34,540 bases of DNA from a virus, in IMG/VR virus record IMGVR_UViG_3300030116_004158, positions 1 through 34,540 of that record; one strand, given 5' to 3'. Position numbers and translations under genes: made by a program. Of the stretch, positions 16,488-32,979 are shown piece by piece. The notes beneath the pieces are model-generated. The model saw only the letters and a list, made by a program, of their open reading frames with translations, searched no databases and had not been told where the DNA came from. How positions within the stretch are numbered: position 1 is the first letter of the stretch; each line of letters opens with the position of its first letter.

Positions 16488-17498
16488 TCAATACAAACCA
16501 TGTGGTTTTGCTTCTAATTGTCCTGCTTGTGTAACTCTAACAAACTCTACTTTATGTTTAAATTCATTTAAATTGAGTGCACCAACATAAGACATACTGC
16601 TTCTGATACCATCATTAATATCATCTACAATACGCTTTACTTTTCCTTTGTATGGTAAAATCTTTGAATTACCTTCTACATGATTAGTTTCTCCTCTTGC
16701 TAATTTTGAATCAATTGATGCTGAACCTTGATATTTTTTGTATAATTGTTCATTAGGCCAAAGACCGCTTTTGTTTATTGTTCCAGGAGTTTCTTTTGTT
16801 CCTGCAAATAAAGAACCAATCATTACTAAATCAGCACCAAGACCTAATGCCTTAGCAACATCACCTGTTGTTTTACAACCACCATCAGATATAATTGGAA
16901 TATCTACTGTTTCTATACATTGTTGTAAAGCATTAACTTGAGGAATACCAACACCTGCTCTAATTCTTGTTTCACACATAGAACCATTACCAATACCTAC
17001 TCTTAATGAATTAACTCCCCAACCTTCTAAATCATACGCTGCTTCAGCAGTACAAATATTACCTGCTAAAATATGCATATCTTCATCAATATCTTGAATA
17101 TAATTAACAGTATCTTTAACCATTTTATGATGACCATGTGCTACATCAATACACATAACATTAAGATTAGTCCAAGATAATAATTGGTCTATTCTATGTT
17201 TTGCTTTTTCACCAACACCTACTGCTACACCATATGGTATTTGTTCTGCTTCTAATGATAGAAAATCTTGCATTTGATTTTCTACTTTATCAAATCTATG
17301 AATAATACCTAATCCTCCTAATTGACCTAATCTTTTAGCCATTTCAAAACCGCATACTGTGTCCATAGGTGAAGCAATTAATGGTTGTGTTAATTCCATA
17401 CCTGCATAATTTATTTCAGTATTACAATTTTGTCTTGATGTAATTTCTGAATACTTAGGTATAATACTTATATCATCAAATGTTAATTGTTCTCTCAT
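16488..17498 (-). CDS. IMP dehydrogenase / GMP reductase family enzyme
   Basis: 336 aa TIM-barrel without CBS domains. Key parts: [12 protein letters not shown] near the N-terminus, the phosphate and catalytic loop [20 protein letters not shown] with the nucleophile C175, [21 protein letters not shown], and [17 protein letters not shown] near the end. The flap lacks the usual Arg-Tyr pair of IMPDH, and the [11 protein letters not shown] stretch and FVRVTQ end look closer to GMP reductase, while [10 protein letters not shown] is IMPDH-like. So either GMP synthesis (IMP to XMP) or GMP to IMP recycling is possible. It is 9 bases from PolB, implying nucleotide supply for replication. Start ATG follows GGGAGAGAATAAT. 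Confidence 0.85.
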
Positions 17499-27478: not shown

Positions 27479-27642
27479 TCTTCTTCACTCTCCATTAATT
27501 CTTTCCATTCTTCACTATATTTCCAAGGTTTTTCCATTAAATATAATATTTGTTCTACATCTAATCCTTGTGTTTCATGTAGATGTCTAGCCAATGCTAA
27601 AATATTATAATGATATTCAAACCATTTTACATTATTCGTCAT
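27475..27642 (-). CDS. 55-aa unknown acidic protein
   Basis: Starts at ATG 27642, inside the end of the histone-fold candidate gene; GGAG lies ten bases upstream. It is helical (HYNILALARHLHETQGLDVEQILYLM) and ends MESEEE. Its stop overlaps the ligase ATG. The His/Leu-rich helix shows no metal motif that I recognise. Possibly a regulator or simply a translational coupler between its neighbours. Confidence 0.45.
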   Translation of the reverse strand: MTNNVKWFEYHYNILALARHLHETQGLDVEQILYLMEKPWKYSEEWKELMESEEE

Positions 27643-27904
27643 TATTCCACTCTCCAAATTCTTCTTCATCTTGTTCTTCTTCTTCTTTCATCTTATCCTG
27701 AAAGTTTACAAATGCTAATTTAACATGAGCCTTAGATAGTCTTGTATTACTATCATCACCACCTGCTTCTATTTCACATAATACTGCAAACTCATTCATA
27801 ATTTGTTCAATCCTAGTTTGAAATTCCATTACAGCACTCATAGGTAATTGTCTATTTGGTGCAATATCTTCAAACACTCTTTTTATTTCTCTTATACTAA
27901 CCAT
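27632..27904 (-). CDS. Histone-fold candidate with acidic tail
   Basis: 90 aa. Residues 1-70 can be laid on an archaeal histone: helix 1 VSIREIKRVFEDIAP, loop 1 NRQLPMSAV (with Arg at the place of the conserved loop Arg), long helix 2 EFQTRIEQIMNEFAVLCEIEA, loop 2 TRLSKAHV (like the R-x-T-x-K-x-E pattern of histones), helix 3 KLAFVNFQDKM. The last ~20 residues are very acidic (KEEEEQDEEEFGEWNNDE), unlike archaeal histones, and could mimic DNA or act as a chaperone tail. GGAGATGGAAAA precedes the ATG. Fold assignment is by pattern only. Confidence 0.5.
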   Translation of the reverse strand: MVSIREIKRVFEDIAPNRQLPMSAVMEFQTRIEQIMNEFAVLCEIEAGGDDSNTRLSKAHVKLAFVNFQDKMKEEEEQDEEEFGEWNNDE

Positions 27905-28281
27905 TTTTCCATCTCCTTTTCATTAAAAAAATATTTTGGATTTCCATTTTTTAAGGGATGTGCAATCCAAACACTCCCACTTAGAGAATCAACTCTAACT
28001 ATTTCATAATCTTTAGTTACTTTAACTGTATTAACTTCAGGTGTTTTACCATATAATCTAGTAATTTCTGTTGATACTTTATCCATGTTATCCATTATGT
28101 ATTTAATAACTAAAGGTTCTTGAACTTCAACATAACCTTCTCTTTCCATTTCATATTCTCCTGTATTATTACAAACATTACATTTACTACCATTACAAAT
28201 AGGACATTCTATTAATAGTGGTCCAATTACAGGAAATCTTATTCTTCTGAATCGTCTAACTCTATCATCTGAATCTTGCAT
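27892..28281 (-). CDS. Zinc-finger protein with a YEIVRV module
   Basis: 129 aa. A basic start (RVRRFRRIRFPV) precedes ECPICNGSKCNVCNNTG, a DnaJ-like finger of four Cys. The central ~40 residues are helical. The end (YEIVRVDSLSGSVWIAHPLKNG) resembles a segment in the 76-aa protein at 33250-33480. It overlaps the JAMM gene by 43 bases and the histone-fold gene by 13, so translation is probably coupled. AAGGAAC precedes ATG 28281. Nucleic-acid binding is likely but not proven. Confidence 0.5.
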   Translation of the reverse strand: MQDSDDRVRRFRRIRFPVIGPLLIECPICNGSKCNVCNNTGEYEMEREGYVEVQEPLVIKYIMDNMDKVSTEITRLYGKTPEVNTVKVTKDYEIVRVDSLSGSVWIAHPLKNGNPKYFFNEKEMEKWLV

Positions 28282-28703
28282 AATTGTTCCTTCCCATTTA
28301 GTTTATACCATTTCATTTTTTCATGGTCACCAAGAACAATTGCTGAATCTAAGATAGGTTTTTGAGTATTAATTGTAAACCAATCTGTTCCACTAAAATA
28401 TGCTTGACCAAACGGATGTGTATGAATCCAACACTTAAGAGGGATTTTCATACCTTTAACTGATTCATCTTTATAATCAACAAAACTTCTAGTTCCTTTA
28501 CCAATAAACAAATTATCATCTCTATCTACAATAACAGAAACTTCTTTCTCGTTTAGTAAATCATGTGATACATGCCAAATAACATTATGAAAGTGTTCAC
28601 TTTCAAAGTTATTATTCTGTTCTCTAAACGATTGTTTAATATTGTCTTTCATGTGTTCCCACAATTGCGGGTCTATTTCTTCATTTTTTACTTCTTCATT
28701 CAT
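28239..28703 (-). CDS. JAMM/MPN-family metalloprotease (deubiquitinase-like)
   Basis: 154 aa from ATG 28703 (GGAGATGAAAAA upstream). The zinc motif HTHPFGQAYFSGTD (H94, H96, S104, D107) is the H-x-H-P-x(n)-S-x-x-D core of JAB1/MPN+ proteases, and an upstream Glu in NEKEVSVIVD (~E52/E54) could be the catalytic glutamate. The family cleaves ubiquitin-like proteins from targets or processes their C-termini. An E1-like gene lies 0.7 kb upstream in the same operon. No tail-assembly or NlpC domain is attached, unlike the phage lambda gpK type. Confidence 0.8.
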   Translation of the reverse strand: MNEEVKNEEIDPQLWEHMKDNIKQSFREQNNNFESEHFHNVIWHVSHDLLNEKEVSVIVDRDDNLFIGKGTRSFVDYKDESVKGMKIPLKCWIHTHPFGQAYFSGTDWFTINTQKPILDSAIVLGDHEKMKWYKLNGKEQLCKIQMIELDDSEE

Positions 28704-28743
28704 TTTTTCATCTCCTAATTCGTATGTTATTCCATATAGGTAA

Positions 28744-29292
28744 TCAGTATCCAACTTTCATCACCTTCATCATAAATTGTGGTATATCTCTACCTGTCCA
28801 TTTAGACCTTTTACCATCTCTACTCATTCTTTTTTGTTTATTATAATATAATCTGTAAGCATCTATACTATCTTCCATTTTGTAAACCATCGGCATAGCC
28901 TGATATGGTTGTTCAAACCCATTATCTTCTAACAACTTTGGTGGGTTCTTTAGTATTTCTCTTAATTTTGTATCTGATTTATGTACTTTATTATAACGAT
29001 ATGTATATTCATCACATAGTTCACAAAATAATTTATACAACCAATTGTAGTGTTGTGTAGATTTTCTAGCCCATATAGCAGAAGGGTGTTGTATGTGAGT
29101 TTCTTTGTATAACTTATGTCTAAGTTCTTCATTTTCATATACAACCCAACCATCATCATCAAGATACCTATCTACAACATGATGTGTAGTACACAATAAC
29201 TGTGCATATTCTAAAATCATTTTAACACAATGTCTATCTGTGTGCATTTGAGCACATTTCTTTTGGTCATGGTCTAAATAAAATATATTCAT
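28744..29292 (-). CDS. Conserved viral protein of unknown function (MNIFYLD family)
   Basis: 182 aa. MNIFYLDHDQKKCAQMHTD followed by RHCVKMILEYAQLLCTTHH, then HPSAIWARKSTQHYNWLYKL and a Tyr-rich C-terminus with YRLYYNKQKR, is a pattern I know from many marine phage and bacterial proteins with no assigned function. The conserved His, Asp and Lys at the N-terminus could form a catalytic site. It sits between the 34-aa gene and the JAMM protease. ATG 29292 overlaps the upstream TGA after AAGGAGATGAAGAA. Confidence 0.6.
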   Translation of the reverse strand: MNIFYLDHDQKKCAQMHTDRHCVKMILEYAQLLCTTHHVVDRYLDDDGWVVYENEELRHKLYKETHIQHPSAIWARKSTQHYNWLYKLFCELCDEYTYRYNKVHKSDTKLREILKNPPKLLEDNGFEQPYQAMPMVYKMEDSIDAYRLYYNKQKRMSRDGKRSKWTGRDIPQFMMKVMKVGY

Positions 29293-29398: not shown

Positions 29399-29950
29399 TC
29401 ACCCATTGATTCTAAAGTGCTTTTGTACTTCTTCACCATTAAACCAACGCTGAATCCATTGAGCACCATAACCTGCAATACATACTTGCATAAAATGTAC
29501 ACCTTCAGCATCTTGTTCCCAAGAATCACCTTGACAACTAAATGAACCATCAGGTCCACTAGTAAATGTAGCATATAATTTAGGGTCTTCTAAATGTGAA
29601 ATCATAGCAGCATTTCTACCTTGTGCTCTTAAGTCTAACCATTTAACATTTGAATTATACATAGTGCGTCTAATATCTAAATTATCAGCACAACATACAA
29701 CTAAATCATAGCCCTTCAATTGTTGAGGAGTTAATACAGGGTATGGTTGTGCATCAATATTACAATGTTTAGCCATAGCATTTACTTTCTTATCATCAAT
29801 ATCATCTTCTGTAAAGTTTTGATATGTTAGATTCTTTTCTTCTACAATATCAGGGTCATATACAGTTAACTTGTATAACTTCGTTCTATTCAATTGAGGA
29901 ATTAGAAAACTTCCAATTCCACCTGCGCCTATTATCATTACTTTTCTCAT
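29399..29950 (-). CDS. E1/ThiF-like adenylyltransferase, minimal form
   Basis: 183 aa. The ATP-binding loop is IIGAGGIGSF (GxGGxG, residues 8-13), followed by YDPDIVEEKNL (D34, N40), YQNFTEDDIDDKK (K54; the usual Arg-Gln is Tyr-Gln) and DLVVCCADNLDIRR, matching the MoeB/ThiF/UbaA core. C139 in SFSCQGDSW is a candidate catalytic Cys. There is no C-terminal rhodanese or zinc domain and it is much shorter than host E1s (~250 aa). It would adenylate a ubiquitin-like or sulphur-carrier C-terminus. ATG 29950 is preceded by AGGTGAGATAGAA, which follows the TFB gene. Confidence 0.8.
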   Translation of the reverse strand: MRKVMIIGAGGIGSFLIPQLNRTKLYKLTVYDPDIVEEKNLTYQNFTEDDIDDKKVNAMAKHCNIDAQPYPVLTPQQLKGYDLVVCCADNLDIRRTMYNSNVKWLDLRAQGRNAAMISHLEDPKLYATFTSGPDGSFSCQGDSWEQDAEGVHFMQVCIAGYGAQWIQRWFNGEEVQKHFRING

Positions 29951-29952
29951 TT

Positions 29953-30573
29953 CTATCTCACCTTTTTCAAGTTTCTTTTTAGTGCTGGTAAACTAATACC
30001 AAATAATTTACAAGTTTCTTTTTGTGTTAGGTCGCTACATTCATAAAATATAGCACTTGCTAGACCTCTTGTTAATGTGTATGGTAAATTTTGCACCATT
30101 TCCTTTACCTCGTCAACATTAATATCTACTTCATTATAATAAGGTTGTAAATCTTCTAAATCAAATATACCACTTTTACTATAATGTCTATTAATTATTT
30201 TAATTAATCTATTTACTCTTGTAATACTTGCACCTAAGAACCTACAATACTCTTTAAGATATACTAATTGTTTTAAATCTTTAAGAGTAAAGTAAGTTAT
30301 AGCACAGTATCTTTCACTTAATGTATATGTACTAAACTTTCCTGAGAATAATATAGTATTATAATTTTCAAGAATATCTTTTTTGTATTTACTTATACTA
30401 AATTCACTCAATAATAAATCTAATATTGGTTGTTCAGACTTCTGCACAGCGGCTGTACCTTCATTTAAAACAAAAATTCTATTTGCTTGAATCATTCCAC
30501 ATACATTACACACGGCTAGATTAATCGTATTATCCATATGTAAACTCTTTGAATTACAATTAAGGCATGGCAT
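29953..30573 (-). CDS. Virus-encoded TFB/TFIIB-like transcription factor
   Basis: About 206 aa from ATG 30573, which overlaps the previous gene. The N-terminal zinc ribbon is MPCLNCNSK then AVCNVCGMI (C3, C6, C22, C25), as in TFB. It is followed by two weak cyclin-like repeats; the second (TRGLASAIFYECSDLTQKE, then CKLFGISLPALKRNLKKV) has the TFIIB pattern in which a Leu-rich helix precedes a helix-turn-helix for the BRE. It is shorter than cellular TFB (~300 aa). It could steer RNA polymerase to viral promoters. Divergent zinc-ribbon transcription activators are an alternative. Confidence 0.65.
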   Translation of the reverse strand: MPCLNCNSKSLHMDNTINLAVCNVCGMIQANRIFVLNEGTAAVQKSEQPILDLLLSEFSISKYKKDILENYNTILFSGKFSTYTLSERYCAITYFTLKDLKQLVYLKEYCRFLGASITRVNRLIKIINRHYSKSGIFDLEDLQPYYNEVDINVDEVKEMVQNLPYTLTRGLASAIFYECSDLTQKETCKLFGISLPALKRNLKKVR

Positions 30574-31777
30574 CCCAATCCAACCTAATTTCTGTTTGTC
30601 CTTTTGTATGGTCAGGAATATATCTACCAACTGTTGATACTAACTTAATTAACATAGGGTCATTCATACAAGCAAATGCTCTAGCCGCAAATTGGTCACC
30701 AACTGAAGCACCACTTGAAAGATTATCAATACAAATTGGTCCACTCCATTTATAACCATACTCATCATTATCAATTGTTGGTTCAGCAATAGCAGGAATT
30801 ACATTATCATTGGTAGTAGTTCTTGTTAATACATATGTAGATACATCTTGAATACCACGCTTTGATTGATTATCAATAATCATCCAATCCGCTAATTTAC
30901 CTCTAACATACATAGCCAACACTTCTTTACCATCACTCTTAACAAAAGTACCTTTCTTAATTACATCATAATCTCTTACCATGTTTTCAAACAATTCCAT
31001 CGCTCGCTTCTCAACAATATCTTGCTTACGGTTTTGTTTAAGATATTCTTTCATAATTTTAGTTTGAGCATCTGTTGGTTTATTACCTGTTGTCTTCTCA
31101 AATAATTCTTCACATGAAATCATATACCACTTACCTTTCTTATGCCCATTAAGATATGTATTAACAAATGTGTTTAAATCTTTCAAACCCATTTCTCCCC
31201 ATACTCCACTACTAATCTCTACTGCAAAATTAGTTGGTGCAATTTGCATTACATTCATTCTACAATTATGTTCTGTAACTTTACCTTCTTCTCTTTGAAA
31301 GAATTTGTAGGGCACTCTATTTTCCATAACATATGTAATATTTTCAGGCATATCAATACATCTTTGCATATAATCATCTAATGCTTCATCTGCTTCTTCT
31401 CCATCACCTGTAATATAACAAGAACGGAAAATAGTTCTTGCTAATGCTTTTACAAGAATATCAAGATTTGCATATACACCATTAAGATTATACCTAACAC
31501 CATCTTTACGCAATACTGCTAGAAAACCACAGTTACCAATTCTTAGTAATGCGGATTTCTTTGGACTATTTCTAACATGGTCTACTACTCTTAATTGTTG
31601 TTTAATAGCATTAGTAAATCCTTCAATTGTTGGTTCTTTAGATGAGGCTATATTACCTCTTCTTGCATAAATATCAATTACTCTATCTCTTACAAATATC
31701 TTAGATGTAACAGTTGTACTAATAATTGAATTTCTATCATCACTTGCATGTCTTACTCTAAATTCTACTTTTCCCAT
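30560..31777 (-). CDS. Large protein of unknown function
   Basis: 405 aa from ATG 31777 (AGGTG 6 bases upstream, same geometry as the gene after PCNA). Mixed alpha/beta, with no membrane segment or Cys cluster. Noted stretches: GKVEFRVRHASDD at the start, IGNCGFLAVLRKDGVRY, a Lys-rich helix (TKIMKEYLKQNRKQD), and near the end ARAFACMNDPMLIKLVSTVG. It is followed directly by TFB, overlapping by 14 bases, so a shared control is likely. I do not recognise a family; virion or early host-takeover roles both fit. Confidence 0.5.
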   Translation of the reverse strand: MGKVEFRVRHASDDRNSIISTTVTSKIFVRDRVIDIYARRGNIASSKEPTIEGFTNAIKQQLRVVDHVRNSPKKSALLRIGNCGFLAVLRKDGVRYNLNGVYANLDILVKALARTIFRSCYITGDGEEADEALDDYMQRCIDMPENITYVMENRVPYKFFQREEGKVTEHNCRMNVMQIAPTNFAVEISSGVWGEMGLKDLNTFVNTYLNGHKKGKWYMISCEELFEKTTGNKPTDAQTKIMKEYLKQNRKQDIVEKRAMELFENMVRDYDVIKKGTFVKSDGKEVLAMYVRGKLADWMIIDNQSKRGIQDVSTYVLTRTTTNDNVIPAIAEPTIDNDEYGYKWSGPICIDNLSSGASVGDQFAARAFACMNDPMLIKLVSTVGRYIPDHTKGQTEIRLDWDAMP

Positions 31778-31782
31778 TTTAT

Positions 31783-32979
31783 TCACCTATTCTTTAATAA
31801 TTCTCCTATCATTTCACTTGCTTCACTCTTAGTTAGACCATCAGGTACTTCGCCTCCAAGTCGCTTAATATATCTTACTTGTTTATCTGTCGCTTCAACT
31901 TCATTAGTAGATGTTGGGTCTATAATATTTAGCAAGGCATTTAATTGTTTTTCACTAAGTTCTCTTCTATTTACAATACGATTTCTCATATCATTTAAGA
32001 ATTTATTTTCCCAAGAATTTTTACCCATATCAATTGTAAATGCGGGTATATCATAATACCTACATGCTTCCATTAAAGCCTCATCATCATATTCTTGACC
32101 TGTTTCTTCTCTAATTTGATTTGCCTTTTCTCTAAGTGCTTGTCTTCTAGCCTCTAGTTCAGCCTGTTGTTTTGTTTTTTCTTCTTCTACAATAGCAATT
32201 CTTTCTGCTCTTTCTGCATCTTTTCTATCTAATTCTTCGTTAAACTTTTCCATGCGAGCATATAACAATTGTACATCTTTCCATAATTGTTCATTAGGAT
32301 AACCTCTAGTTTCTATTTGTCGTCTTGGGTTATCAGGGTGATTCCAACGCCAAACAACAGAAGCCATTTTACCTAATGAACCTACCTTTGTTTTAGCGAT
32401 AGCCCAATGCTTCTCATATCTTTTTGTTTCATGGTCATAATAATTACCCTTTGACCTAACATTAATTCTCAAATCTAATTCCTTAACTTCATTGAAAAAC
32501 TCTTCCCAATCATCACCATATTCAGACCACCACCATTCAGCCTTCATTGTTTTAACTGATTCTTTAATCCATTCAATGATTCTTTCTTCAGTAATTGCAT
32601 CTGCTGGTATTCCTTTAATTTCTTTCAAATGTCTAATAATCATCCAATTAGCAATATGTTCTGAACCTAATATTTCTAAATTACCATTTTCAGTATTTTC
32701 AATTTCAAAATGCCATGCAATAGCATGACCACAAATACATTCTTTAGGATGTGCATTTTGATGATGTTCAGGTAATCTATAAGCAGGTGCATGCATTGGT
32801 ATATACCATACATTACCTGTTGTTCTCCATTCATGTTTAGCAATATCCCAATCATCACTAACTGATTCTTCAGTTAATCTTTTAATTAAAGATATATTAA
32901 ATGCACCACTTCTTTTTACATTAATTTCATCAGGTCTATCACCATCAATATAATGTGTCATATTAATAAAATCATCCAT
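31783..32979 (-). CDS. CxCGH protein with coiled coil and a C-terminal helical module
   Basis: 398 aa from ATG 32979. Residues ~80-105 contain ECICGHAIAWHFEIEN and GSEHIANWM, a pattern seen in uncharacterised phage proteins (CxCGH ... iGs.Ci..f) that may bind a metal. Residues ~240-310 are a charged coiled coil (KDAERAERIAIVEEEKTK). The last ~35 residues (KQVRYIKRLGGEVPDGLTKS) match the C-terminal module of the HNH protein at 13591-14076. It is 5 bases before the 405-aa unknown. No function is assigned. Confidence 0.5.
   Translation of the reverse strand: MDDFINMTHYIDGDRPDEINVKRSGAFNISLIKRLTEESVSDDWDIAKHEWRTTGNVWYIPMHAPAYRLPEHHQNAHPKECICGHAIAWHFEIENTENGNLEILGSEHIANWMIIRHLKEIKGIPADAITEERIIEWIKESVKTMKAEWWWSEYGDDWEEFFNEVKELDLRINVRSKGNYYDHETKRYEKHWAIAKTKVGSLGKMASVVWRWNHPDNPRRQIETRGYPNEQLWKDVQLLYARMEKFNEELDRKDAERAERIAIVEEEKTKQQAELEARRQALREKANQIREETGQEYDDEALMEACRYYDIPAFTIDMGKNSWENKFLNDMRNRIVNRRELSEKQLNALLNIIDPTSTNEVEATDKQVRYIKRLGGEVPDGLTKSEASEMIGELLKNR

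Follow-up and report, generated by a model that had tools for sequence, protein, structure and literature searches.

A reader-less TFB-like factor encoded within an apparent ubiquitin-like module of a virus with presumed Poseidoniales hosts

Results

The TFB-like gene and its neighbours

The window, i.e. the whole stretch of DNA analysed, is an IMG/VR virus record of 34,540 bases in itself. ORF analysis, structure modelling and profiles identified a gene for a reader-less TFB-like factor at 29953..30573 on the (-) strand, with an ATG start codon at 30573-30571, a stop codon at 29953-29955 and a product of 206 aa. An earlier sequence-only reading had given the same coordinates and length; it had also described an upstream gene of 405 aa with an overlapping start, which was confirmed. 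This gene (30560..31786, (-)) encodes 405 aa from the ATG at 31777 or 408 aa from a GTG, and it overlaps the TFB-like gene by 14 nt at 30560-30573. An E1-like (ThiF) gene (29399..29950, (-); ThiF 4.8e-15, PADLOC E1-E2 models) begins 2 nt past the TFB stop codon, and a JAB/JAMM-like protease with the motif HxHP...SxxD is encoded at 28239..28754, (-), where the Prok-JAB match stayed below the cut-off. Between the E1-like and JAB-like genes, a 182-aa protein (28744-29292, (-)) matched phrog_624 'DNA binding protein' with 1.1e-52 and, weakly, Pyr_excise. A 90-aa product at 27632-27904 gave a histone-like impression only; Pfam gave no support and the designation was rejected. The window furthermore encodes PolB, a clamp loader and an ATP-dependent ligase, as Magrovirales/Aoguangviridae do, and an IMP dehydrogenase/GMP reductase domain protein (16488-17498, (-); Pfam IMPDH 1e-86).

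The E1-like neighbour was used to gather 34 loci, 27 of which have the TFB gene immediately before the E1-like one in the direction of transcription. An ORF at this position matched a two-sequence TFB profile in 26 loci; the 27th is L021, where one in-frame stop interrupts the TFB gene (L021:3699-4589), representing either a sequencing error or a real split. Two of the remaining seven loci are cut at the locus edge (L018, L037), and the other five (L033, L034, L036, L038, L039) stem from distant phages, with E1 matches of 29-32% identity only. Of 20 virus records, all selected for carrying an E1-like or a TFB gene, 19 gave a TFB profile match. The window protein is 71% identical to its relative in L001 (one scan). 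Three sequence pairs had dN/dS ratios of 0.21, 0.17 and 0.20, and the pair formed by the window and L005 had 0.54; the family evolves under purifying selection. The L001 relative, the profile matches and these ratios mark the ORF as no mere chance reading frame. Neither the TFB-like protein nor the 408-aa protein had a tblastn match among 50,697 phage records.

Predicted fold of the TFB-like protein

An AlphaFold2 model built on 13 aligned sequences reached a mean pLDDT of 79.7 and a pTM of 0.56; it consists of a two-stranded ribbon and ten helices arranged as 2 x 5. The zinc ribbon (CxxC-x15-CxxC, residues 3-25; 30499..30567, (-)), already noticed in the sequence-only reading, showed weak Zn_Ribbon_TF matches, and its cysteines 3, 6, 22 and 25 are kept in all 13 distinct short homologues; it is predicted to dock on RNA polymerase. 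Alignment and spacing place a short linker, modelled with low confidence, at residues 26-47 (30433..30498, (-)) instead of a B-reader and B-linker; pLDDT fell below 50 at residues 34-46. A first cyclin repeat of five helices followed at residues 48-131 (30181..30432, (-); model and VIA comparison) and a second one, likewise of five helices, at residues 139-205 (29959..30159, (-)), the latter assigned mainly from the model, a predicted and not a solved structure, and from profile alignment. The earlier reading had named the second repeat; the model contains the first as well. The C-terminal HTH of repeat 2 was modelled as helices 184-191 and 195-205. By alignment, residues 195-205 (29959..29991, (-)) form a candidate BRE-recognition helix, which is basic and unlike that of the host.

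A Foldseek search of the PDB with this model gave a best E of 1e-4 and ten matches at or below 1e-3. Ranks 1-33 are entries which we take to be TFIIB, Brf or TFB. Global TM did not exceed about 0.4 and rmsd was large, which probably reflects a different placement of the domains. In the VIA comparison, archaeal TFB 1d3u_B ranked first (Z 13.2, 94 residues aligned, rmsd 2.5, over the first repeat); rows 1-29 were likewise TFIIB, Brf or TFB, with coverage mainly of the first repeat. Cyclins and Orc6 came next at Z 10-11; hence, it is the ranking and not Z alone that carries the argument for TFB. Matches in a viral fold library included giant-virus TFIIBs and, at rank 10, the 'putative transcription initiation factor B' of the rudivirus SSRV1.

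Sequence and profile comparisons

Single-sequence searches with the window protein produced no Pfam or NCBIfam match above curated cut-offs. HTH_24 (17.2 bits) and Sigma70_r4_2 outranked Zn_Ribbon_TF (13.1 bits), all being sub-threshold. A match to a generic zinc-ribbon/HTH family, which the sequence-only reading had named as the outcome speaking against a TFB, was obtained with single-sequence Pfam only, and fold and profile tests reversed that outcome; an HTH or sigma-like identity was dropped after these tests.

PF00382 detected the TFB gene in 6 of 20 records, more divergent relatives only. Among ten proteins scanned, Zn_Ribbon_TF scored above the cut-off in two long forms, those of L024 and L027, and the TFIIB repeat was slightly below the cut-off in long forms. 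The TFIIB model PRK00423 matched four of five long proteins with 5e-11 to 1.3e-7 and the fifth with 0.0015. An alignment of seven long forms plus the L020 protein matched the archaeal TFB chains 1d3u_B/1ais_B with 3.3e-15, and the profiles of short and long viral forms matched each other with 3.8e-31. At the level of sequence, the long syntenic homologues are recognisable TFBs. Fold, profile-profile comparison and synteny support TFB homology of the window protein and bear out the TFB-like identity proposed before. In PHROG, phrog_20431, listed as of unknown function, matched six of the eight proteins in the alignment of long TFBs (L024:7129-8001 and further genes of this class; best end-to-end match 1.4e-10); probably, this is a viral TFB family.

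Length classes, B-reader and recognition helix

The viral TFBs fall into two length classes, one of about 206-231 aa from ATG (13 distinct proteins including that of the window) and one of 292-317 aa, which is carried by more divergent viruses. Six relatives with the short form were found on contigs of 69.7-96.0 kb, as compared to 34.5 kb for the window record and 90-100 kb for Magrovirales/Aoguangviridae genomes. The distance from the fourth ribbon cysteine to a landmark in repeat 1 (helix 3) is 61-64 residues in 12 of the 13 short forms and 77 in that of L020. Seven long viral forms have 97-110 residues here, and 17/17 host sequences have 129-131. The alignment gap of the short proteins falls over the B-reader and B-linker and, by alignment and spacing, both elements are absent from 13/13 short forms. 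Most long viral TFBs retain GS-I and RLR-like pieces in this region, as judged from an alignment that is weakest for L022; a regex for motifs of the reader type caught three of the seven long forms.

The recognition helix reads GVTEVTIRNRYKELIQ in host TFBs, identical in 11/11, and is close to [GN]ISEVTLRGLLKI in 6/6 host TFB paralogues. The short viral proteins have a helix of the type G[IV]S[LI]P[AR]LKR in 12 of 13 cases, with L020 divergent, and this helix is unlike all 17 host sequences. In a tree the short viral TFBs formed one group (100/98), although the tree has an arbitrary root and long branches that meet, and the placement of viral relative to host sequences is unsure. Their grouping is consistent with a single loss of reader and linker inside the viral TFBs. 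The window ORF encodes a genuine TFB homologue, conserved and carried by a virus, which lacks one defining feature of canonical TFB, the reader/linker.

Comparison with TFBs of the presumed host

The host presumably belongs to Poseidoniales. A 16S probe pattern retrieved 67 stretches, mostly titled Poseidoniales, Poseidoniaceae, marine group II or Euryarchaeota; a GroEL query for host genomes gave no match. TFIIB was found above the cut-off in 12/12 presumed-host genomes searched, mostly as two paralogues each. Profiles of short viral and host TFBs matched with 6.7e-9 (local), aligned from the ribbon through the recognition helix; as controls, the reversed profile gave 0.12, and none of 30 column shuffles went below 0.1. 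When 145 genomes of the host order were searched with the short viral profile, 13 contained a match, and all six matches inspected were the second host TFB paralogue. With open frames of 330-370 aa, none of the 13 was a reader-less cellular TFB. No viral TBP was detected in 20 virus records, hence host TBP would be needed.

Promoter sequences

The sequence-only reading had pointed to clear TATA boxes. The window contains 12 copies of the motif TTTAWATA, below the chance expectation of 20.3, and 98 of 100 shuffles contained at least as many, so this part of the reading is not supported. A motif search upstream of genes, weak in itself and based on crude gene calling, revealed no clear viral TATA/BRE motif. 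Upon inspection, GGTGAT-like leaders were seen near start codons in the upstream regions. The viral TFB could plausibly redirect the host RNA polymerase towards viral promoters; since TTTAWATA is not enriched and no BRE/TATA motif emerged, it is the anatomy of the protein and not the promoters that argues for this.

An apparent ubiquitin-like module around the TFB gene

The gene order 408-aa gene, TFB, E1-like and JAB-like was present in 24/24 loci examined, which include near-identical ones (L014/L015/L016 and L027/L028); other ORFs are sometimes interposed. The metal motif of the JAB-like protein is kept in 31/31 homologue ORFs. A model of the 408-aa protein resembled E2/UEV folds in its C-terminal part (residues about 251-400) with VIA Z up to 5.5, below the safe level of the tool; nearly all VIA rows listed were E2/UEV, and the best Foldseek E was 0.35. 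Cys349 is invariant (19/19) inside a GPICID-like motif, GP[IF]C[IV]D, and may be the active site. The Pfam E2 family gave no match in 19 members of the family. On the strength of the model, the 408-aa protein appears weakly E2-like.

Furthermore, 23 locus ORFs (e.g. L001:2322-2525), including duplicates from one contig, encode a conserved small protein of roughly 66-80 residues ending in VGG plus a short tail. One of four gave a weak ThiS match (0.072). The gene lies upstream of an RNR gene, past the right end of the window, and its product is a candidate ubiquitin-like modifier. Together with the E2-like 408-aa protein, the E1-like protein and the JAB around the TFB, it looks like a virus-coded ubiquitin-like module. 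We found no published account of such a module around a TFB in the open-access papers searched.

In L021, two genes whose translations look like GroES and GroEL on visual inspection are located just downstream of E1/JAB (L021:6186-8020). Marine group II viruses are reported to carry chaperonin genes (PMC5332604).

Discussion

In TFB, the B-reader and B-linker are viewed as the working tip, serving start-site choice and DNA opening. The window protein is a reader-less TFB-like factor and a derived variant of the TFB mapped in Aoguangviridae, to which it is presumably orthologous. The reading we favour, held with a little more than even confidence, is that of a reduced virus-borne TFB recruiting the host polymerase to viral promoters by means of its changed recognition helix. 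Its ancestor would have been a full-length viral TFB, with the reader and linker lost in the lineage of the window. The zinc ribbon would dock on host RNA polymerase, the two cyclin repeats would engage host TBP together with promoter DNA, and the changed helix would pick viral promoters, where the host polymerase would then be recruited. According to PMC7289017, the B-reader and B-linker of canonical TFB act after recruitment. As these elements are lost, strand opening and start-site selection would have to be provided by host TFE, by the polymerase or by DNA of very high AT content, and the viral TFB may not support initiation alone.

The same loss could make the protein a competitor, which has a docking ribbon and a promoter-binding core, does not open DNA and ties up polymerase or TBP, shutting off host initiation. 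We regard this as the less probable course, albeit one to be taken seriously. Besides the absence of reader and linker from 13/13 short forms, it is favoured by two precedents: TFB3 of Sulfolobus, which lacks the B-finger, abolishes binding of TFB1 to polymerase in vitro (PMC2246294), and the viral protein RIP blocks polymerase, partly through mimicry of the B-linker (PMC9501531). However, a pure competitor would need the ribbon only, whereas the window protein retains its two cyclin repeats and a conserved recognition helix, a helix which TFB3 has lost. Somewhat more doubtful is a helper that acts with host TFB at viral promoters in a TFB3-like manner, the host factor supplying reader and linker. 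TFB3 appears to activate in trans with canonical TFB (PMC7289017), and the viral form misses the same part; but it keeps the promoter-binding helix, unlike TFB3, and a complex of two TFBs on one promoter is not established. That an unrelated zinc-ribbon/HTH regulator merely resembles TFB is very improbable: the best single-sequence Pfam matches, HTH_24 and others, are weak and below cut-off, and PDB sequence matches are scattered, but fold, profile, synteny with the recognisable long TFBs and the host TFB paralogues found in the search of 145 genomes speak against it.

The constant place of the TFB among E2-like, E1-like and JAB genes suggests a ubiquitin-like system linked to transcription takeover. 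Such a takeover might have two parts, the module tagging and removing a host initiation factor such as TBP or TFB and the reader-less TFB steering the freed polymerase to viral promoters; we consider this a long shot. Archaea degrade TBP2 via a ubiquitin-like tag (PMC4895103). As a natural, selected, virus-specific TFB, the short form would be a clean tool for determining which steps need reader and linker. It also bears on a question raised for viral TFBs in PMC9501531, namely whether viruses of archaea change promoter usage by means of a basal factor that they encode themselves.

Viral TFB is already a known kind of protein, given those of Aoguangviridae and rudiviruses; the open-access papers searched contain no description of a reader-less form. 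For Aoguangviridae, the ICTV profile maps a TFB gene on the 92-kb genome of a Poseidoniales virus (PMC10768690). This magrovirus (YSH_150918, ON649702) shares with the window the TFB gene, the G+C content (31.5%) and the replication gene set. The map names its TFB without sequence, length or domain detail; hence, orthology with the window protein is inferred. TFBs of SSRV1 and other Italian rudiviruses are known as well, and PMC9501531 treats their role as an open question. Like the window protein, the SSRV1 TFB is a virus-borne TFB of an archaeal virus; it belongs to another virus group, and the matched protein has 270 residues as compared to 206 aa here.

Among cellular proteins, the Poseidoniales host TFB and its paralogue align with the viral form from ribbon to recognition helix, but the host protein has about 130 residues from the ribbon to helix 3 of repeat 1, as compared to 61-64 in 12 of 13 short viral forms, and a different recognition helix. 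The nearest functional comparison is TFB3 of Sulfolobus, a TFB paralogue without B-finger that keeps the zinc ribbon (PMC2246294). TFB3 cannot substitute for canonical TFB and appears to activate transcription alongside it (PMC7289017). Both TFB3 and the window protein are devoid of the B-finger; TFB3 is cellular, UV-induced and lacks the C-terminal HTH, whereas the window protein keeps this HTH and both cyclin repeats.
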